A stretch of DNA of 44,838 nt from a virus. The translations under genes and the position numbers were made by a program. This document shows positions 1 through 44,838 of the stretch, in pieces. Below the pieces are notes generated by a model. It was given only the letters and a program-made list of their open reading frames with translations, ran no database searches and was not told the origin of the DNA. Position 1 is the stretch's first letter. Each line of letters begins with the position of its first letter. The stretch covers positions 1 through 44,838 of IMG/VR virus record IMGVR_UViG_3300033143_001244; one strand, written 5' to 3'.

Positions 1-54
1 TAATGATGCAGCTTGGAAGTAACCTGAAGGATTAACCTGAGATAACAACTGACC
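1..54. repeat. Left copy of 54-bp terminal direct repeat
   Basis: These bases are identical to 44785-44838. Both copies lie inside the portal coding sequence, and the reading frame is continuous only if one copy is removed. This is what an assembler leaves when it closes a circular or circularly permuted genome, so it is probably an artefact of circular assembly and not a true terminal repeat. Confidence 0.9.
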
Positions 55-11398: not shown

Positions 11399-13186
11399 TT
11401 ATCTTCTTCCTAGCATACGATAGTATAATCGTTTAGCATGACCTACTATAATAGGTGTTATACCTACAATACCTGCAACTATACTTGTCATAGTAATACT
11501 ACCAGCAATCGTTTTGAAAGACACAAAACTCGGAAACAGATTGCCGATAGCAGTTATTGATGAAGTAAATAACTTAGAAGTCTTTTTAAATAGTGCTCCA
11601 GTTGCTGTTATACTACCAGCTAAACGCATAGGTATCTTTTTAAGTAATAGTCCAGTTGCAGTTATACCACCAGCTAAAGCTTTACCTGTTCTTTTAACTA
11701 TAGTACCAGAAGCAGTTATTGTACCTGTTACTGTACGTTGCACAGTTATTAAGGTATCTAATAAACCAGAGGCAGTTATAGAACCAATTAGGAGTAATGA
11801 CATTCTTTTAAAGACAGTCCCTGCTGAGGTTAAAAAGCCTTCTAATGTTTTCAGAGTCTTCTTAGCCAGAATGCCACTACTTGTTATTGTACTACTAAAT
11901 AGGATACTTGTTTTCTTATTTACTGTTCCTGCTACAGTCATTGAACCACTGACAGCTTGATAAAATAAACCTACTACCTTATTACCAACTAATACACTAG
12001 TTGCTGTTATACTACCTGTGAATGTTCTGAAGTATAGCTTTGCAGTAGTAAGTATACCTGAACCTGTTATACTACCAGTAAACGACTTAAATGTTTTTTT
12101 AGTTATACTACCTGTGCTTGTTATGACACCTACAAGATGTAAAGGTATTCTCTTTAATAGTATACCAGATGCAGTTATACTACCTGTCAATACTTTAACA
12201 ACTTTCTTGACTCCAGAGACGATACCAGAGCCTGTAATAGACCCTGCGAATGCTCTTACATAAGTTGTAGCTTTAGTCAGTAAACCAGAAGGTGTAATAG
12301 AACCTGTGAATGTTCTAAACGCAGTTAGTACAGTAGATAAAGCACCTGTACTAGTCAAAGAGCCAACTACTGTTCTAAACGCAGTTAGCTTAGTTGCTAC
12401 AATACCTGCAGCAGTTATAACACCTGCCATTAGTCTAGCAAATAAGTTAACCGATGTCATAGCACCAGTACCAGTTAAAGACCCAACAGGAGTTGAATAA
12501 TATAGAGTGCCCGATATTTTAGTTATTGTTGCTGAGCCAGTACTGTTATAAGCATCTAATCCTTTTACTCGAAAAAGCATTGCATCGCTGTCTGCTAAAT
12601 CAGCAGCGATGAACTCTATAGTATATTCAACTTCAACAAAATCTAAACCTAAGAAATCAGCATCACCACCAATACCATCTTCAATAATACCCGCGTTAGG
12701 GGATATTATCGTGCCTATTATTTGTGCAGTAGTATCTCCCCCATTTGTTATATTAGTAGAATCAAAAGCTTTGACCTCCGATGAAACGGTAGTCATGTCT
12801 GTCCAAGCACCAGCGTTCAACTGATATTCCATTTGACCGTCTAAATACGTTTCAGGATTATCTCCAAACTCATAAATAACAAATCGCAATCTTTGTTGTA
12901 CGTTACCTGAACTTACATCTATATCTAAATTATTGTTAGCAAGAACAGGCCAAGTAGCGGTAGTTTCATTACCATCGTCTTCACGCCAACGATATTCATT
13001 TTGTCTCCAAGTTGCAGGAGGAGGGGGTATGGTAATAGTAGAATGAGCAGTTACGGTGTAAGTTTGATTGCCGTCATTATTACTATCATATACTTGAAAT
13101 TCTACTACATCCCCATCCGCTAAATCTGCTTTAATAAACTCAAGTGTGTATTCTATTTCCCATTCTTCATTAGCTAGAATGTCCAT
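11399..13186 (-). CDS. Large fibre/structural protein, 3-prime part of a frameshifted gene (595 aa)
   Basis: The first 220 residues form a beta-rich, lectin-like domain (YRWREDDG and SEVKAFDST motifs) ending in EVEYTIEFIAADLADSDA. From about residue 230 to 575 the protein consists of some 16-18 imperfect repeats of about 20 residues with core GSITASGxLxK, basic and hydrophobic. The preceding frame (13174-13554) encodes a second copy of the same beta domain and runs out exactly where this frame takes over, so both parts probably were or are one protein of about 720 residues. Likely a tail or head fibre. Confidence 0.6.
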   Translation of the reverse strand: MDILANEEWEIEYTLEFIKADLADGDVVEFQVYDSNNDGNQTYTVTAHSTITIPPPPATWRQNEYRWREDDGNETTATWPVLANNNLDIDVSSGNVQQRLRFVIYEFGDNPETYLDGQMEYQLNAGAWTDMTTVSSEVKAFDSTNITNGGDTTAQIIGTIISPNAGIIEDGIGGDADFLGLDFVEVEYTIEFIAADLADSDAMLFRVKGLDAYNSTGSATITKISGTLYYSTPVGSLTGTGAMTSVNLFARLMAGVITAAGIVATKLTAFRTVVGSLTSTGALSTVLTAFRTFTGSITPSGLLTKATTYVRAFAGSITGSGIVSGVKKVVKVLTGSITASGILLKRIPLHLVGVITSTGSITKKTFKSFTGSITGSGILTTAKLYFRTFTGSITATSVLVGNKVVGLFYQAVSGSMTVAGTVNKKTSILFSSTITSSGILAKKTLKTLEGFLTSAGTVFKRMSLLLIGSITASGLLDTLITVQRTVTGTITASGTIVKRTGKALAGGITATGLLLKKIPMRLAGSITATGALFKKTSKLFTSSITAIGNLFPSFVSFKTIAGSITMTSIVAGIVGITPIIVGHAKRLYYRMLGRR

Positions 13187-29997: not shown

Positions 29998-30002
29998 GAA
30001 TA

Positions 30003-30307
30003 AAGGCTAATAGTGCTAAGCCTTATCCAAAGACTGTATAAGGTACCGCAGTCAGCACCTATGCTGATATATAGACCAAGTGAGCCGCTCTTCTGGGATT
30101 AAACAACTAAGATTGGCCTTGTTGGGTTAAGGTAATAGATTGACTATATTGAAGCGTTCGGGACTAGGGTTAAGAGCCACTGAAACACCATGTAGGTTAC
30201 GCTTCCGAAGGTGTACTGGAGTCCCACCTATTTTGGGGTGAGTGGTCAGCTCAAATATGGTCGCGTCCATATCGGCTAGAGCAGTTCGACTCTGTTCCGC
30301 CCCGCCA
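30003..30307 (+). ncRNA. Candidate structured RNA with pseudoknot
   Basis: Stems visible by eye: AAGGCT/AGCCTT (30003/30019), TCAGCA/TGCTGA with CCTA loop (30052-30067), and nested GGGACT/AGTCCC (30160/30220), CCA/TGG, ACACC/GGTGT (30185/30210). GAAGCG at 30151 is complementary to CGCTTC at 30200, inside the innermost loop, a pseudoknot. A T-arm-like hairpin ends the element. It could be a phage ncRNA, a leader controlling the polymerase operon, or a ribozyme remnant. I find no match to tmRNA, group I intron cores or known riboswitches. Confidence 0.45.
30235..30307 (+). ncRNA. tRNA-like element, non-canonical
   Basis: Seventy-three nt run from GGGGTGA to a GCCA end. The 3-prime half is tRNA-like: a T-arm with loop TTCGACT closed by AGCAG/CTGTT, then CCGCCCC that pairs with 6 of 7 bases of GGGGTGA, then G and CCA. 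The middle stem ATATGG/CCATAT has a 6-nt loop, not 7, and the D-arm is missing or rudimentary. So it is either a degenerate tRNA or a tRNA-mimic; no anticodon can be assigned. Confidence 0.4.
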
Positions 30308-30340
30308 CTTTAATTAATCCTCTTTTAAGGAGAGTATAAA

Positions 30341-33681: not shown

Positions 33682-34351
33682 AGAGTTAGCTTTAAAAACC
33701 GCATCAGAATCACCATGTGAAAAACGTAAGGTAGGTGCAGTATTAGTATATCAAGACACAGTATTGAGCTATGCTAATAATTATCACCCAGATGCTTTTA
33801 GTGTATGTGAACTAGCTGATGGTAGTACTGACCCAAAGGTTATTCATGCAGAAGTTGCTACTTTAGATGCAGCACATAAAGCGTTTGACCATATGCACGT
33901 ACCATTAACTCTTTATGTTACACATAATCCATGTACTAGTTGTTTAGATTATATTAATCATTATGCTAAGCAGTATGGTATAGTTATTAAGATTAAGATT
34001 GTTGAGCAGTTTATGAAGTTTGATTCAGGTAAACTTGCTTATGATTTAATACCACCTACGTGGATTGAACTTGATGCTGAAGTACTAACTAAAGGTGCAC
34101 AGAAGTATAAACCTAATAACTGGCGGCAAGTTAAACCAGAAGAGATTATGCGTTATTACTCTGCTGCTATGCGTCACATACAAGATTGGAAGAAATTTAT
34201 GGATGGTCTTCCTGAAGGTCATTTATTTGATGACGGTGAAATGGGTATAGGCACACATCATTTAGCTAATGCAAGAACTAACCTGGGTTTTTTATTAACA
34301 TTAACAGAAACGCTTGAAAAAGCAGAGGAAATTAAAAATGGAAACAGTTGA
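33668..34351 (+). CDS. dCMP deaminase-like domain fused to dATP/dGTP diphosphohydrolase-like domain (227 aa)
   Basis: Residues 1-112 form a zinc deaminase: HAE (H60, E62) and PCTSC (C89, C92). Residues 117-212 match the dATP/dGTP diphosphohydrolase N-terminal-type domain: KFDSGKLAYDLIPP, LTKGAQKYKPNNWR, AMRHIQDW, FDDGEMGIGTHHLANA with conserved K, NW, RH, DD and E residues. Both act on the nucleotide pool. The fusion is unusual. Start at ATG 33668 with AGGAG 7 nt upstream. Confidence 0.72.
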   Translation: MNSHEELALKTASESPCEKRKVGAVLVYQDTVLSYANNYHPDAFSVCELADGSTDPKVIHAEVATLDAAHKAFDHMHVPLTLYVTHNPCTSCLDYINHYAKQYGIVIKIKIVEQFMKFDSGKLAYDLIPPTWIELDAEVLTKGAQKYKPNNWRQVKPEEIMRYYSAAMRHIQDWKKFMDGLPEGHLFDDGEMGIGTHHLANARTNLGFLLTLTETLEKAEEIKNGNS

Positions 34352-34685
34352 TATAGCACGTATGGTACATGAATGTAATAAAATGTACTGTGAGGCGATT
34401 GGTGATTTATCACAGGTATCTTGGGAAGATACACCACCTGAGATTCAGAACTCAGCAGTTGATGGTGTAGAGTACTTTATGGACAATCCTGATAGTGGTC
34501 CAGAAGAGATGCATGAAAACTGGGTGAAGTTTAAGCTAGCACATGGTTGGAAGCACGGCGAAGAAAAGAGTACGTTCCGTAAGACTCACCCATGTTTAGT
34601 TCCGTACGATGAATTACCTGAAGGCCAGCAAATGAAAGATAAGATTTTCATGGCCTTATGCGGAGTGTTACAGTTTGCCGACTAA
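34338..34685 (+). CDS. RyR-domain protein (115 aa)
   Basis: The whole protein is one ryanodine-receptor (RyR) repeat: IARMVHECNKMYCEAIGD, SQVSWEDTPPEIQNSAVDG, DNPDSGPEEMHENWVKFKL, and KTHPCLVPYDELPEGQQMKD. Stand-alone RyR domains are frequent in phages but their role is unknown; in animals the repeats are parts of a calcium channel. AGAGGAAATTAAAA precedes ATG. It overlaps neighbours and shares the nucleotide operon. Confidence 0.8.
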   Translation: METVDIARMVHECNKMYCEAIGDLSQVSWEDTPPEIQNSAVDGVEYFMDNPDSGPEEMHENWVKFKLAHGWKHGEEKSTFRKTHPCLVPYDELPEGQQMKDKIFMALCGVLQFAD

Positions 34686-34905
34686 CAAAGAGTTAGGTAT
34701 AGCTGCGGCACAAGTTTATTATTATAGTCAAGCGTACGGGTCATTAACAAGACATGTAAGAGCTGAAGATGCTATTAAATTATTCTTACCGCCAGTTACT
34801 GAGATGATGGTACAGTACACAGCACCATTACCTCAAGATAGAAAAGACTGGTTAGCTGGTTTTAAAGAAGAACAAGCTAAGATTAAGCTTGATTTGTGTT
34901 TCTGA
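34675..34905 (+). CDS. Hypothetical protein (76 aa)
   Basis: TTG start, supported by GGAGTGTTACAG and overlap with the RyR gene. Helical, with a C-terminal VRAEDAIKLFLPP and WLAGFKEEQAKI. Its stop codon lies within the first 10 bases of the repeated leader element. No family recognised. Confidence 0.45.
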   Translation: MPTNKELGIAAAQVYYYSQAYGSLTRHVRAEDAIKLFLPPVTEMMVQYTAPLPQDRKDWLAGFKEEQAKIKLDLCF

Positions 34906-35043
34906 CGATTCTGGGCCTCCTAAGGTCTTGTTTAAGAAGTTTAAATTAGATATTGATATAATCATCAAGGCTAAAAACGGAGTCCTTAGAATCGACCTAA
35001 GGAGTCCGTTAGCCTAAGTCATTGATTTATAAGGAGTTTTTAT
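34899..35043 (+). promoter_or_regulatory. Duplicated structured leader, copy A (riboswitch-like)
   Basis: A 145-nt element before the Cas4-like gene, homologous from end to end with 39086-39239. Shared ends: TTTCTGACGATT, AGGTCTTGTTTAAGA, TTAGAATnGACC and TTGATTTATAAGGAGTTTTT. It forms AGGCTAA/TTAGCCT around CGGAGTCCTTAG/CTAAGGAGTCCG (one mismatch). CTAAGGAG in the stem copies the true ribosome site ATAAGGAG, so TCCTTAG can pair with either. This would allow an on/off translation switch. The ligand or trigger is unknown. Confidence 0.6.
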
Positions 35044-35044
35044 A

Positions 35045-35875
35045 ATGAGTATTAAGATTAACCGAACAGAGATAGTAATACGTCCATCAAGTGTTGATTC
35101 ATTTCAACAGTGTGCTTATCAATGGGCTAAGGTATTTTTAGAAGGTCGTGTAACTATACCAAGTTCTCGTGCTGCTATTGGTACTGGTATCCATAAAGCA
35201 GTTGAAGTAATGTGGGATGAAGCAATACAGCGAGGTGTTAACGACCCTAATGTTGACATGATGTTTGATGCTGGTGTTGAGGCGTTTAAAGAAGAATCTA
35301 AGAAAGAGGGTATGAGTTATAATGAAGGTGAAACTATTGACACTTGTAATAAAGAAATCATTATTGGCACGCAAGCTTTCGTTGATGACCTTGTGCCTTT
35401 CTTGGACATTCCGACAGCTGTTGAGAAACGGTTTACCATCAATATCTCCGACCATCCGATTGTATCTGCAATTTCTGGTACTGTTGACTATATTGCTCCT
35501 GGCCGTATCGATGATGTTAAAACTAGTAAGCGGAAACCCTCACTACCTAACTATGTCACTCAGCAATCCATTTACAAATTATTAGCTGAGCAAAATGGTC
35601 ACCCAGTACAACATAGTATGATTCAAGGTGTTGTACTTAAGAAAGTACCTGAGTGTCATATTCTTGAACTTGAGCCTAATGTTGACCAAGCTAAATATTT
35701 AGTTAACCACATGCTGGATACAATTCGGGTAGCTGCAGCAGATATAGTTCCAATTGAGACTTTGTTTCATTGCAATACTAAGTACTATCTATGTAGCCCT
35801 AAATATTGTGTGCTGCATGGTGAGTGTCCAGCAACTAAAAAACATGTTCCTAAACAGGAGAAGCCTAAGTTATGA
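35045..35875 (+). CDS. PD-(D/E)XK nuclease, Cas4/RecB-like (276 aa)
   Basis: RecB/Cas4-type architecture: RPSSVDSFQQCAYQWAKV at the N-terminus with a first Cys (C22), GTGIHKAVEVMW, then GTVDYIAPGRIDDVKTSKRK containing the D and D-x-K catalytic pair, QQSIYKLLAEQ, and a C-terminal cysteine cluster (CSPKYCVLHGEC) that probably binds an iron-sulfur cluster with C22. Such phage exonucleases process DNA ends for recombination or degrade host DNA. Preceded by structured leader A with AAGGAG. Confidence 0.75.
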   Translation: MSIKINRTEIVIRPSSVDSFQQCAYQWAKVFLEGRVTIPSSRAAIGTGIHKAVEVMWDEAIQRGVNDPNVDMMFDAGVEAFKEESKKEGMSYNEGETIDTCNKEIIIGTQAFVDDLVPFLDIPTAVEKRFTINISDHPIVSAISGTVDYIAPGRIDDVKTSKRKPSLPNYVTQQSIYKLLAEQNGHPVQHSMIQGVVLKKVPECHILELEPNVDQAKYLVNHMLDTIRVAAADIVPIETLFHCNTKYYLCSPKYCVLHGECPATKKHVPKQEKPKL

Positions 35876-36099
35876 TGGAAAAGCTGACAACTAAAAAGGC
35901 TGTCATGCTAGTATTAAAAGATACTAAACGTTCTAAGTACTGGTTAGCTCAACAACTGGAAGTACAGCCTATCATGATAAGCAATTATCTTAGGCCTGTA
36001 CGACCCAGTCGTATGGGTATTAAGACAGCTGAGCTATTCAAGCAGTTATTTACAATTGAAATAACTGATGTGTATAATCCTATCAAGGAGATAGAATAA
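35872..36099 (+). CDS. Small helix-turn-helix protein (75 aa)
   Basis: Cro/C1-like layout: AVMLVLKDTKRSKYWLAQQL then VQPIMISNYLRPV, where a recognition helix would lie near residues 29-42. Starts within the nuclease stop region (ATGATG), with CAGGAGAAGC upstream. It is the best candidate in the window for a sequence-specific regulator and might bind one of the palindromes. Confidence 0.55.
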   Translation: MMEKLTTKKAVMLVLKDTKRSKYWLAQQLEVQPIMISNYLRPVRPSRMGIKTAELFKQLFTIEITDVYNPIKEIE

Positions 36100-36584
36100 T
36101 GAAAAAATTACTTTTAATAGTACTATTATTTAGCTTATCAATAACTATACAAGCAAAAGATATTGGTGGTATAACAGTATTAGCAGGAAAACAAACTAGT
36201 TTAGCTATTTCAACAGGTTATGAGCGCTTGCAGTTTGAAATAATTGGTACAGGTAACACTGGCTATAATATAAAGATTAAGCCAATACAAACAAGTTTAG
36301 TTGATATATGGTTAGGCATTGGGGAGCAAAACTTTACTGAGTCTGTCTCAGACTATAGTAGTAACTGGAACAGTAGTAGTTTAAGTAGTAATTATTATGA
36401 GCCTATTGTACACATAGAGTTTGTACATTATTCAGGTTTATTACTGCGTTTTGCTGCATATAAAGCAACGGGTACTTTTGCTTTTATACGTACAGATAAT
36501 GTAGGTAATGTATTAGAACGTAAAGTAGTTGCTAGAGATTTTATAAATACTAGTGCATGGTTAGGTTATCGCTGGAGATTCTAA
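36099..36584 (+). CDS. Exported protein, probable outer-membrane beta-barrel (161 aa)
   Basis: Signal peptide MKKLLLIVLLFSLSITIQA with cleavage expected after residue 19. The mature part alternates polar and hydrophobic residues (YERLQFEIIGTGNTGYNIKI; VHIEFVHYSGLLLRFAAY) and ends SAWLGYRWRF with a C-terminal Phe, the Bam recognition signal of outer-membrane barrels. Size suits an 8-strand barrel. Such a phage protein could block receptor use by other phages or alter the envelope. It lies inside the replication block. Confidence 0.6.
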   Translation: MKKLLLIVLLFSLSITIQAKDIGGITVLAGKQTSLAISTGYERLQFEIIGTGNTGYNIKIKPIQTSLVDIWLGIGEQNFTESVSDYSSNWNSSSLSSNYYEPIVHIEFVHYSGLLLRFAAYKATGTFAFIRTDNVGNVLERKVVARDFINTSAWLGYRWRF

Positions 36585-36587
36585 CAT

Positions 36588-37874
36588 ATGATGATACCGA
36601 GGGATTACCAAGCTGAGCAAGCAGAGGTCGGTGCTGAGATATTACGTAAGTACATGATTCTCTACTTAGCTTGGGAAGAACGGACTGGTAAAAGTCTGAC
36701 TGGTTTATTAATTGCTGAACTAATTAATGTAACTAATATATTAATAATAACTAAAAAGAAAGCTTTAGGTAGTGTTAAGCTTGGTGAGGGGTGGGCTAAC
36801 TTATTAGCGGAGTTTGAACATGAAAAAAACTATACACTTACTACCTACGGTAAAGCACGAGTTGGAGATTATGACCTCATTATATTGGATGAAGCGCATA
36901 ACTACATATCTGGCTATCCCAAGCCATCGGCTACCTGGAAGAAACTCAAACAGGTCTGCAAAGGCAAGCCTATTATATACATGTCTGCAACACCACATGC
37001 TCAAGGATATCAATTACTCTATCACCAATTCGCATTGTCTTCTTGGAGCCCATGGCGGAATGAATCGACTTTCTATAATTGGTTTAGACATTATGGTATC
37101 CCATATACCATTAAAATCCATGATAAAGAAGTAAACCAGTATGATAGAGTACAAGATGATATAGTAAAAGTTTGTGTAGAACATTTATTCATTACTAAGA
37201 CTCGTAAGGAGCTTGGCTTTGACCATGAACCGAAAGATGAACTGCATTATGTAGAACTTAACGATATTACTAAGCAGTTATATAATGATTCGCTAAATAA
37301 TAAAATTCTAATATTAGGAGATAGTGGTGTAACTAAATTGTTAGATACTACTATTACTATGCGGTCTACACTACATATGCTTGAAGGTGGCGTAGCAAAA
37401 GTAACCTCATATATGCCACCTAATCCTGAACATAGTATACTGCAGACAGACGTAGAAAAGATTGAGGGTGAAGCATTATATCACGTTCACTATAATTTAT
37501 GTTTCTCTAATGAGAAAATAGAGTACATACTAGAAAACTGGGGTGATACAGATGAAATCGCTATTATGTATAACTATATTGGTGAAGGTATAAAACTAAG
37601 ACAGTGGTTTAAAAAAGCAAAGATATTGCAAGCTACATCGAATGCTGAGGGTGTTGAATTATCACATATTAAGCACCTTATTATCTACAGTCAAGATTTT
37701 AGTACAGCAAGACATACACAAAGACGAGCTCGCCAAGCAAGCATGCAGCGAGAATGGGCAATCTTTGTGCATTTCTTGTTAGTAAAGAAAGCAATAAGCT
37801 GTCAAGTCTACAAGACAGTATCTATTAATAAAGTCAACTATGTTGACAGTCGATTTGAACGGGAGATGTTATGA
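36588..37874 (+). CDS. SF2 DNA helicase/translocase (428 aa)
   Basis: SF2 motifs: Q-like RDYQAEQA (5-12), Walker A WEERTGKSLT (29-38), DEAH box LIILDEAH (DEAH at 101-104), motif III MSATPHAQG and motif VI-like HTQRRARQA near the end. Resembles SNF2-type phage helicases used in DNA repair or recombination. Starts at an ATGATG 4 bp after the barrel gene and overlaps the ligase by ATGA. Confidence 0.8.
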   Translation: MMIPRDYQAEQAEVGAEILRKYMILYLAWEERTGKSLTGLLIAELINVTNILIITKKKALGSVKLGEGWANLLAEFEHEKNYTLTTYGKARVGDYDLIILDEAHNYISGYPKPSATWKKLKQVCKGKPIIYMSATPHAQGYQLLYHQFALSSWSPWRNESTFYNWFRHYGIPYTIKIHDKEVNQYDRVQDDIVKVCVEHLFITKTRKELGFDHEPKDELHYVELNDITKQLYNDSLNNKILILGDSGVTKLLDTTITMRSTLHMLEGGVAKVTSYMPPNPEHSILQTDVEKIEGEALYHVHYNLCFSNEKIEYILENWGDTDEIAIMYNYIGEGIKLRQWFKKAKILQATSNAEGVELSHIKHLIIYSQDFSTARHTQRRARQASMQREWAIFVHFLLVKKAISCQVYKTVSINKVNYVDSRFEREML

Positions 37875-39085
37875 AACTATTAGACAACTTAGCTGAGACA
37901 AACTCAACTATAGATAAACAAGCAAAACTAAGAGGTATTGCTCATCTTGATTGGGCTACCTTTATATATGCTTATAACCCTTACTTAATTTATCACATGA
38001 AATTTCGTGATGAAGAAATTAATGCTATAGGTGAACCAAATCAAGAAATGTTTAACCTGTTAGATGATGTTGCCAATAAGGTTATATCTGGTAATAAGGC
38101 TAAGGTAATGGTACGTACGTTTGCATCTAATAATGGTGACTTAATTAAACTAATCATTAATAAAGACTTACGTTGTGGTGTAACTGCTACTACGTTCAAT
38201 AAGGTTCACCCCAAGTCTATTGCACAGTTTAAAGTACAATTAGCTAAGGAAGCACCATTAGATAGTTTAAAGTATCCTTTATTAGTTCAACTGAAATATG
38301 ATGGTGTGCGTATAATAGCTGTTAACACTGGTGGTAAAGTTAAGTTTTATACTCGTAATGGTAAAGATGTAGCTCTACCAGAGTTAAGACGAGTTATTGA
38401 AGCTATACCAGCTGTTAACTATGTATTAGATGGTGAACTTACTTTAGCTAAAGGTAAACAAGATGAGCGCACTAAGATTTCAGGTATGGTAAACTCAGCT
38501 ATGCATGGCGGACGTATAAGTGAAGAGCATGTTGTATATAATTGCTTCGACTTTATGTCTCTATCACATTGGGAAGAAACAAGCTGCCCTGATATATATG
38601 AAGTGCGATATTCATTGGTAAGGGAAGTACTAGCACAGACAGATAGTACAATGGTACGGTTAGCACACACCTATGAAGCACATAGCCCAGAAGGTGTTAC
38701 TGAGATATATGAGAGTATAATTGCATCTGGGTTTGAGGGTCTTATTCTAAAGAGAGCAGACCACTTGTATACTTTTAAACGGTCTAAAGATTGGGTTAAA
38801 GTTAAAGAGATTATAACCAGTGAACTTAAGTGTATTAATATCATGGCGGGTGAAGGTAAATACCAAGGTATGATAGGTGCACTGAAGTGTCAAGGTACTG
38901 TTGATGGCAAAGAAGTAACAGTTAAAGTTGGTTCAGGTCTAACAGACTTACAACGTGGACTACCAGAGTCTGAATTTATATTCAGACAGATAGAAGTTAA
39001 ACACAACGGAGTAATAAAAGATAGTCGTACTGGTGAGTACAGTCTATTTTTGCCTCGCTTTGTTATGGTTAGGTTCGATAAGTGA
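37871..39085 (+). CDS. ATP-dependent DNA ligase (404 aa)
   Basis: Nucleotidyltransferase motifs: I KYDGVR with adenylated Lys142, III VLDGEL (185-190), IV SGFEGLILK and V WVKVKE, followed by an OB-fold (GMIGALKCQGTVDGK; SGLTDLQRG). Size and order match T7/T3-type phage ligases, which seal nicks in replication and recombination. Followed immediately by structured leader B. Confidence 0.9.
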   Translation: MKLLDNLAETNSTIDKQAKLRGIAHLDWATFIYAYNPYLIYHMKFRDEEINAIGEPNQEMFNLLDDVANKVISGNKAKVMVRTFASNNGDLIKLIINKDLRCGVTATTFNKVHPKSIAQFKVQLAKEAPLDSLKYPLLVQLKYDGVRIIAVNTGGKVKFYTRNGKDVALPELRRVIEAIPAVNYVLDGELTLAKGKQDERTKISGMVNSAMHGGRISEEHVVYNCFDFMSLSHWEETSCPDIYEVRYSLVREVLAQTDSTMVRLAHTYEAHSPEGVTEIYESIIASGFEGLILKRADHLYTFKRSKDWVKVKEIITSELKCINIMAGEGKYQGMIGALKCQGTVDGKEVTVKVGSGLTDLQRGLPESEFIFRQIEVKHNGVIKDSRTGEYSLFLPRFVMVRFDK

Positions 39086-39239
39086 TTTCTGACGATTTTA
39101 GGCTTCATGAGGTCTTGTTTAAGACATTTTAATTGAGTCTAGATATGATTAATAAGGCCTAATTTAGTCGTCTTAGAATGGACCACAGGAGCCCAGGATT
39201 TGGAGGCTCCTAAGTCCTTGATTTATAAGGAGTTTTTAT
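39086..39239 (+). promoter_or_regulatory. Duplicated structured leader, copy B (riboswitch-like)
   Basis: Begins at the ligase stop. Homologous to 34899-35043, with GTCTT-GTTT-AAGAC hairpin, long-range GACGA/TCGTC and TTAGGC/GCCTAA pairs, and AGGAGCC/GGCTCCT. CTCCT of the last stem could instead pair with the ribosome site AGGAG at 39229, and TCCTT-GATTTAT-AAGGA is a direct anti-ribosome-site hairpin. The same switch logic thus survives although the stem sequences differ, which argues for selection. Confidence 0.6.
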
Positions 39240-39312
39240 GATAAAAAGTAAGGTAATGTTATGGAGTACTCCTGAAGGTACTAATGTATTTAAACAGCAG
39301 TGGGGAAACTAA
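39238..39312 (+). CDS. Short ORF after leader B (24 aa)
   Basis: ATG directly follows the strong ribosome site of leader B and reads MIKSKVMLWSTPEGTNVFKQ to QWGN. Ends 1 bp before the nuclease ATG. It may be a leader peptide coupling the switch to the nuclease, or the remnant of a lost gene. Confidence 0.45.
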   Translation: MIKSKVMLWSTPEGTNVFKQQWGN

Positions 39313-39313
39313 A

Positions 39314-39586
39314 ATGAAAGAACAAGATATACAAGCTAAGATACAAAAATATATTAAAGCTAGAGGAGGTTACGTTGTTAAAACTATCACATCTAATCGT
39401 GCTGGTATTCCTGATTTATTGTGTTGTATTAGTGGCAAATTTATTGGTATAGAAGTTAAGATGCCAGGTGCGAATGCATCACCACTACAATTAGCTAATG
39501 GTACAATGATTGAAGCTGCTGGAGGTTTATTTTTAGTGGCGACTAGTGCAGCTGAGGTTAGAGACTTCTTGGATGCTTACTTATGA
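39314..39586 (+). CDS. VRR-NUC family nuclease (90 aa)
   Basis: Stand-alone VRR-NUC domain: KEQDIQAKIQKYIKARGG, NRAGIPDLLCCISG with catalytic Asp (D in IPD), FIGIEVKMP giving E-x-K, and a C-terminal LATSAAEVRDFLDAYL-type helix. Family members cut branched or junction DNA and are common phage resolvases. Start chosen at 39314 (MKEQD); a longer frame begins inside the preceding ORF. Downstream of leader B. Confidence 0.8.
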   Translation: MKEQDIQAKIQKYIKARGGYVVKTITSNRAGIPDLLCCISGKFIGIEVKMPGANASPLQLANGTMIEAAGGLFLVATSAAEVRDFLDAYL

Positions 39587-39726
39587 AATTATCTTATATA
39601 GTGCTATTTAGTATACTTATACTATTATTTCACTGTAGTCAACCTGAGGAGCATCCATCGAAGCCCCTCAAGCATGACCCACTGAATAAAGCTATTTACT
39701 CTGGTATGAGCACATTTCAAGGCTAG
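39583..39726 (+). CDS. Small lipoprotein, possible outer spanin (47 aa)
   Basis: MKLSYIVLFSILILLFHC is a signal sequence ending in Cys18, after which the chain is Pro/Lys/Glu-rich. Short proline-rich lipoproteins of this size act as outer-membrane spanins (Rz1-like). The lipobox is not ideal (Leu-Phe-His-Cys). Coupled to the nuclease by ATGA; its 3-prime end overlaps the convergent gene by 35 nt. No inner spanin was found. Confidence 0.45.
   Translation: MKLSYIVLFSILILLFHCSQPEEHPSKPLKHDPLNKAIYSGMSTFQG
39645..39670 (-). terminator. Hairpin at the convergence of the two transcription blocks
   Basis: On the leftward transcript TGAGGGGC pairs with GCTCCTCA (one G-U) around 10 nt, just after the last leftward gene. 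No U-tract follows. It could end the leftward transcript; it lies within the small lipoprotein gene on the other strand. Confidence 0.35.
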
Positions 39727-39916
39727 GGTCATAGATATACCCTTCGCCATGCTCTTTAATACATTGAGCAGTACGTTCGGCGTTAGGGTCTTCTACTACA
39801 GGTGTAACACCCTCTTTAACAAACTCTTCGCCTTTAGCTGCAGCATCAAGTCTGCCTTGTGCTTCATCACTTTTACCAAAGTAACTGCCTGCAAGTAACA
39901 TCTTTTCATTTTCCAT
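39692..39916 (-). CDS. Hypothetical protein, last leftward gene (74 aa)
   Basis: Starts at 39916 with GAGGACTAACAAG upstream; longer frame rejected. Charged, Ala/Glu-rich N-terminus and a C-terminus with two Cys (TAQCIKEHGE, EMCSYQSK). Follows the holin gene in the lysis cluster and overlaps the convergent lipoprotein. No family recognised. Confidence 0.5.
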   Translation of the reverse strand: MENEKMLLAGSYFGKSDEAQGRLDAAAKGEEFVKEGVTPVVEDPNAERTAQCIKEHGEGYIYDPSLEMCSYQSK

Positions 39917-39920
39917 CTTG

Positions 39921-40334
39921 TTAGTCCTCGTCATCGAAATTAGTGAAGTTTTTAGCCTTAATCTTATCTGTTTCCATTTTAGCATTCTTTTCTTTCTGTC
40001 TTGCAATACGCCAAGAAGGAAAACTACCAAATAAGATTGCTTCTACACCAGTAGATATTTCAATGCTATTTAGTTCAAAGTATAAACCAAAACCAAATGC
40101 AATAGCAGTTAGTACAGGTGTGAATAAACTCTTAATAATAGCATCACCAGCATAAGCTAATTTAACTAAAGCATCTACCCAAGGGATAGTCTTAGTATTA
40201 ATAAGCGCCATTATAACTTTGTTTGTTAGCTCTAAAGACTTAAACGCATACTCTGTTTTCTTGTCTTTATCTTCAATCATTTTACCACCAAGACCAAGAA
40301 GACTCGGTAGTGCAGTTGCTAATAATGATAACAT
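39921..40334 (-). CDS. Putative holin, 3-TM type (137 aa)
   Basis: Resembles the GTA/phage 3TM holin group: a hydrophobic N-terminal segment (MLSLLATALPSLLGLGGKM), then NKVIMALINTKTIPWVDALV before a basic turn, FTPVLTAIAFGFGLYFELN as a clear membrane span, and a strongly charged tail. Holins open the inner membrane to time lysis. The cluster with the endolysin and another membrane protein supports it. Confidence 0.6.
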   Translation of the reverse strand: MLSLLATALPSLLGLGGKMIEDKDKKTEYAFKSLELTNKVIMALINTKTIPWVDALVKLAYAGDAIIKSLFTPVLTAIAFGFGLYFELNSIEISTGVEAILFGSFPSWRIARQKEKNAKMETDKIKAKNFTNFDDED

Positions 40335-40597
40335 TAGTGATTACCTCCGTTATGTGTTACATAATCAAATACTACTTTACCTACCCAAAGAATTGCACCA
40401 GTTAATACAGTGACAATAGTACCTATAACTGACTGCTGTGCTTTTTCCCAACGTTTCTGCCTACGCTCATCTTTTTCCATCTGTAATTGTACAAATTTAT
40501 GGTGTGTATCATGCACAGCTGCAGGTATCGTGTCCGGTGGTGAACCTAGTGCTTTTGTTAGAACTTCTTCTAATTCTTCTTTACTTACCCCAGTCAT
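40334..40597 (-). CDS. Single-span membrane protein of lysis cluster (87 aa)
   Basis: Charged N-terminal coiled region (HHKFVQLQMEKDERRQKRW) and one C-terminal membrane span (VIGTIVTVLTGAILWVGKVV). It resembles haemolysin XhlA-like or class III holin partners. Lies between endolysin and holin with ATG overlaps; may be an antiholin or a signal-anchor lysis protein. Confidence 0.5.
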   Translation of the reverse strand: MTGVSKEELEEVLTKALGSPPDTIPAAVHDTHHKFVQLQMEKDERRQKRWEKAQQSVIGTIVTVLTGAILWVGKVVFDYVTHNGGNH

Positions 40598-44590: not shown

Positions 44591-44838
44591 TAGTCTACTC
44601 CTTCATTTGTATTCTGTGGTAGTTTTAATTGTCCGCTTAATGAACCACCTTGTTGTTGTGGTTGTCCTTGTGCCATTAACGATGCAGCTTCTGCAAATGC
44701 AGGGTCTCCACCTAATCTTTCTGCTGTATCAGCTAATATCTTAGCAATATCAGGACTATTTTTAGTCTTCATAGATTTCAGTGATAATGATGCAGCTTGG
44801 AAGTAACCTGAAGGATTAACCTGAGATAACAACTGACC
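44590..44838 (-). CDS. Portal protein, C-terminal part (joins 1-1647)
   Basis: Continues the portal frame without a break if the duplicated 54 bases are counted once. The 65 codons at 44590-44784 include the stop, and the tail is Gln/Gly-rich (QGQPQQQGGSLSGQL) as in many portal C-termini. A TTG within 44785-44838 could be misread as a start of an 80-residue protein; I reject that. Confidence 0.75.
   Translation of the reverse strand, partial: GQLLSQVNPSGYFQAASLSLKSMKTKNSPDIAKILADTAERLGGDPAFAEAASLMAQGQPQQQGGSLSGQLKLPQNTNEGVD
44785..44838. repeat. Right copy of 54-bp terminal direct repeat
   Basis: Identical to bases 1-54. See left copy. One copy must be dropped to restore the portal frame, so the unit genome is 44784 bp. 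Confidence 0.9.

Follow-up and report, generated by a model that had tools for sequence, protein, structure and literature searches.

Two related spacers between co-directional genes, here called copies A and B, were found in the window (the whole stretch of DNA analysed, a virus record of 44,838 bases), and each occupies the entire gap between its two genes. Judging from their letters, and with confidence a little short of even, we read them as diverged duplicates of an operon-internal control region in which a candidate IHF bend site overlaps the ribosome-binding site (Table 1). The sequence family is absent from Rfam and, the tail excepted, was not found in the public phage genomes searched; phage control regions that lie between genes and contain an IHF-type site are a known kind; and the inversion of the tail in place among relatives is the most unusual feature.

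Table 1. Positions of copies A and B, of the features within them and of the adjoining genes in the window.
Feature	Position	Strand	Remarks
76-aa ORF (TTG start), 5' of A	34675..34905	+	no homologue among relatives compared
Copy A	34899..35043	+	intergenic, from 76-aa ORF to Cas4-like PD-(D/E)XK nuclease gene
A left dyad arm CTCCTAAGGTC	34917..34927	+	10/11 complementary to 34994-35004
A -10-like TATAAT (TGATATAAT, extended -10 form)	34957..34962	+	no good -35
A right dyad arm GACCTAAGGAG	34994..35004	+	
A tail CCTAAGTCATTGATTTATAAGGAGTTTTT	35013..35041	+	
A IHF consensus core AATCAATGACTTA	35015-35027	minus	no mismatch
A Shine-Dalgarno-like AAGGAG	35031-35036	+	within tail
Cas4-like PD-(D/E)XK nuclease (PF12705)	35045..35875	+	
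ATP-dependent DNA ligase (PF01068, PF14743)	37871..39085	+	
Copy B	39086..39239	+	intergenic, from DNA ligase gene to 24-codon ORF / VRR-NUC gene
B -10-like TATGAT	39144..39149	+	AAGACA 17 nt upstream
B tail CCTAAGTCCTTGATTTATAAGGAGTTTTT	39209..39237	+	
B IHF consensus core AATCAAGGACTTA	39211-39223	minus	no mismatch
B Shine-Dalgarno-like AAGGAG	39227-39232	+	within tail
24-codon ORF	39238..39312	+	immediately 3' of B
VRR-NUC domain protein (PF08774)	39284..39586	+	

When copy A was searched against the record, B was recovered with 74% identity end to end (E-value 2.4e-20), in agreement with the full-length alignment of the original prediction; all of the blocks quoted for the two copies were found in the order quoted, and no third copy was found in the 44,838-base record with A as query. 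The A-B similarity stood 6.4 sd above shuffles (4.3 sd without the last 31 nt), and shuffles gave an expectation of 0 matches for the 28-nt tail. The description of A as a noncoding leader holds for its bulk, which is intergenic, but the first 7 nt are the 3' end of the 76-aa ORF (stop 34903-34905). The gene preceding B encodes an ATP-dependent DNA ligase; the 24-codon ORF and VRR-NUC gene follow B as had been described, and a convergent junction lies about 450 bp beyond B. A coding remnant was considered and rejected: one frame of A stays open for 38 codons, but B and C (a copy in a relative, see below) have stops, and differences by codon position were 11/10/14 (A-B) and 11/12/13 (A-C), without third-position excess. 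The translation of the 38-codon frame of A resembles that of C and matched no protein family.

Several other observations were made. The 54-bp ends of the window (1-54 and 44785-44838) are identical, which suggests that the genome is complete and was assembled as a circle. At window 36099-36584 and at L008 2299-2601 the replication gene cluster contains inserted small genes whose starts resemble signal peptides, and the former had no match in PHROGs or Pfam. A 343-nt intergenic stretch (window 29998-30340) has a 3' end like a tRNA/tmRNA T-arm (GAGCAGTTCGACTCTGTTCCGCCCCGCCA); ARAGORN found no tRNA or tmRNA anywhere in the window and Rfam gave nothing at E <= 1 for this stretch, which is possibly an unrecognised structured RNA.

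The phage of the window is related to Edwardsiella phage KF-1, Vibrio phage VPMS1, Pseudoalteromonas phage PH1 and Dickeya phage Amaethon. B is also carried by a phage contig, L033, that is nearly identical, and copy A is known from the window phage alone among the relatives searched. Copy C (L008 2184-2335) lies directly 3' of a ligase gene whose product has 55% amino acid identity to the window ligase, the order there being ligase, C, a 100-aa ORF whose start resembles a signal peptide, and VRR-NUC. Diverged copies D (L118) and E (L096) are 150-200-nt spacers that also follow the ligase gene, and D stands directly 5' of the core VRR-NUC gene. A core-only profile (A, B and C, with the tail removed) recovered D at its place after the ligase gene (E-value 4e-4 in 1.2 Mb) and found copy E weakly (E-value 0.38). 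Element identity was 70% for A-C and 61% for B-C; because the ligase fourfold sites adjoining B and C were only 51% identical (chance, 37%), the element is likely to be under some constraint. In L103-L109, L111-L115, L119, L120 and two database phages A matched only scattered stretches of 14-19 nt, several relatives without the element have little or no spacer 5' of the Cas4-like gene, and the genomes examined never held more than two copies each. The ancestral site is probably 3' of the ligase gene, and the copy 5' of the Cas4-like gene probably arose later, by duplication or exchange. The shared regulon of DNA-processing enzymes that had been proposed, here nuclease genes, is unsupported, because the common position in relatives is after the ligase gene and the following gene varies between phages; the Cas4-like gene is, moreover, often leaderless. 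Other short hairpin spacers were seen before the Cas4-like gene of element-less relatives (L105 7927-8000, L107 5236-5316, L108 7930-8000, L115 4853-4902), with hairpin z of -2.4 to -3.7.

In 50,697 phage genomes nothing matched B, C or D, A matched plasmids through its tail and nothing else, and two-block patterns returned known loci only from IMG/VR. Two candidate two-block matches were rejected, one within coding sequence and attributable to chance (L127), the other in a terminator region 3' of a gene, together with the tail motif (L129).

The published IHF consensus is WATCAANNNNTTR / TAAnnnnTTGATW (PMC5963220, PMC10380432). IHF is restricted to few phyla, e.g. proteobacteria (PMC10380432), and the hosts of the cultured relatives (Edwardsiella, Vibrio, Pseudoalteromonas, Dickeya) are all gammaproteobacteria. 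The tails of A, B, C, D and E (5/5) matched the consensus as YAAnnnnTTGATW; in A and B a T-run stands at a distance of about 10 bp from the core, an A/T tract is also present in C and E, and that of D is weaker. In H'-type IHF sites an A/T tract stands upstream of the ATCAA half, and we take the T-run beyond the A/B tail core to correspond to the A-tract of such sites. The five tails thus resemble the IHF sites of proteobacteria and their phages in consensus, in the A/T tract at about 10 bp in most, and in being intergenic, whereas the tail is stricter than the consensus and overlaps a Shine-Dalgarno sequence, and is best called a candidate site. The YAAnnnnTTGATW 13-mers in the window numbered 6 versus 4.0 in shuffles, which is no enrichment, and neither IHF-consensus 13-mers nor the tail motif were enriched in unselected viral contigs.

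A tail of the form CCTAAGTC[AC]TTGATTTATAAGGAGTTTTT, about 30 nt long, recurs across many unrelated phages and plasmids, mostly in intergenic positions. A viral scan with TTGATTTATAAGGAGTTTTT alone as the pattern gave 17 independent contexts, and in 12 of these YAA stood exactly 7 nt 5' of TTGATTTATAAGGAGTTTTT, the IHF spacing (p 3e-13), while none of the 17 had YAA at other offsets from -3 to -13; YAA at this spacing beside TTGATTTATAAGGAGTTTTT completes the published consensus TAAnnnnTTGATW. From these features we infer that IHF may be the reader of the tail. The recurrent motif TAAGTC.TTGATTTATAAGG is stricter than the IHF consensus, so a different factor could read it. The exact 22-mer had only 5 matches in 85k bacterial and archaeal genomes and is therefore no common host repeat, and a literature search on the motif letters found no publication. 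As to its surroundings elsewhere, the intergenic motif of about 22 bp, TAAGTCATTGATTTATAAGG, was seen in unrelated phages and plasmids (L009-L034, L082-L087), in tandem in L022 and L025, within other repeat modules in L014 and L097, and adjoining tRNA-like sequence in L028; the L097 copies near 12654 and 13802 lie just 3' of sigma-70-like promoters. The likeness of TTATAAGGAG to the T7 +1 region raised the possibility of a T7-like RNA polymerase promoter, which was rejected: the subset of ORFs scanned contained no RNA polymerase gene, and unrelated phages have the motif too.

In D and E the tail is inverted at an unchanged position, the D tail TCCTTTATAAATCAAGGACTTAGGA being the reverse complement of the B tail plus one extra T, and in C the tail falls within the 100-aa ORF, in its signal-peptide-like start. 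The unchanged position, against a changing orientation and translation context, points to a site in double-stranded DNA. This bears directly on the reading of the element as a structured mRNA leader (a processing site, a stabiliser or a ligand-sensing RNA), whose folded transcript would control the stability or translation of the downstream gene, and which we consider unlikely though deserving of some weight. Copies A, B and C were more stably folded than their dinucleotide shuffles (z -3.56, -3.08 and -3.29), and hairpins of z about -3.5 also occur in the spacers before the Cas4-like gene of L105, L108 and L115; but D and E were unremarkable (z -1.56 and -0.86) and A, B and C do not share a minimum-energy fold. 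The fold of A kept 84% of its pairs over A-C (4/500 shuffles were equally high), with 5 A-C pairs changed on both sides versus 3.0 in shuffles. Under a divergence-matched null, in which the reference was mutated to equal divergence with pairing ignored, the A fold was retained no more than marginally above expectation (p 0.04 on B and 0.11 on C), and neither the B fold (p 0.5-0.7) nor the C fold (p 0.15-0.34) was retained, the tests ranging over 0.04-0.73. The consensus of all five sequences fell to -2.1 kcal/mol with a covariation penalty, so that the consensus fold was lost once D and E were added. Rfam had no family match for the whole window, and a permissive search on A gave chance-level matches only. 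Conserved ends with variable paired middles had been offered as evidence of an RNA (or DNA) element, and compensatory changes in homologues as support for it; such changes are few, and with the three close sequences examined an RNA reading is possible. What stands of the original prediction is that an element has been conserved, with related copies in three other phages; the conserved ends and paired middles are no sound evidence of an RNA, and a 3' block with IHF-consensus properties, inverted in two relatives, fits DNA better than RNA. The intergenic RNase III processing sites of T7-like phages are RNA elements, and the spacers resemble them in lying between co-directional genes, with inverted repeats and an adjacent ribosome-binding site, but A-E have no common fold and the element is part-inverted in relatives.

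The core of the element is about 95 bp long with imperfect dyad symmetry and an AT-rich centre, and its profile has a weak match to the reverse complement of itself (E-value about 0.8-0.9). A -10-like hexamer falls in identical columns of A (TATAAT), B (TATGAT) and C (TATGAT), with poor -35 sequences; sigma-70 hexamers at 16-18 nt score 9/12 in B, and A has a good -10 only. Promoter matches in the region were not above shuffles, and a weak internal promoter in the core is plausible. Terminator-like matches in 34000-40400 numbered 8 versus 3.0 +/- 1.9 in shuffles, among them one on the minus strand of A and another on the plus strand of B. It is improbable, though, that the element is a terminator/attenuator or insulator whose hairpins and T-runs would end transcripts from either side, including antisense late-gene read-through: the nearness of B to the convergent junction would suit it, as would the similar tail that ICP1 and Vibrio phage 11895-B1 carry after a stop codon, immediately ahead of convergent genes, but the two copies have their hairpins on opposite strands and at unlike places, and a plus-strand terminator just 5' of the Shine-Dalgarno sequence would silence the following gene. 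Slightly less probable is that a small element of the mobile or recombination type (MITE-like or att-like) was copied via transposition or homing. IHF sites are common in such elements, one genome holds two copies, and the tail occurs in unrelated phages and plasmids, there in tandem or in repeat modules; but the A/B borders show neither terminal inverted repeats nor a target-site duplication, the collections searched gave no match to the core beyond this phage group, and C, D and E share one orthologous place, with no examined genome exceeding two copies. Moron-type gene insertions bring their own regulatory flanks, and the element does adjoin variable genes (the 76-aa ORF, the 24-codon ORF and the 100-aa ORF of L008), but it also lies directly 5' of core genes, VRR-NUC in L118 and the Cas4-like gene for A.

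If the element is a control region with an IHF bend site, as we favour, the host IHF heterodimer would bind and bend the tail DNA, and the bend would modulate local transcription, either from the weak internal promoter (-10-like TATAAT/TATGAT) or at transcript ends. IHF action would thereby set the amount of the downstream genes, the distal part of the early operon. The tail itself supplies a Shine-Dalgarno sequence. It could also be an invertible, IHF-dependent translation/transcription switch, quasi-palindromic and offering an IHF site and a Shine-Dalgarno sequence in either orientation (TAAGGAG for A and B, TTAGGA for D and E), in which flips between relatives would keep both functions and alter the geometry of the IHF bend relative to the start codon; we hold this to be very improbable.

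A strong fold of a single sequence together with conserved ends is insufficient for calling an RNA element. If the favoured reading is confirmed, the recurrent phage and plasmid intergenic motif of about 22 bp would gain a candidate reader, and this podovirus group would be one that uses a host DNA-bending protein at operon-internal spacers.
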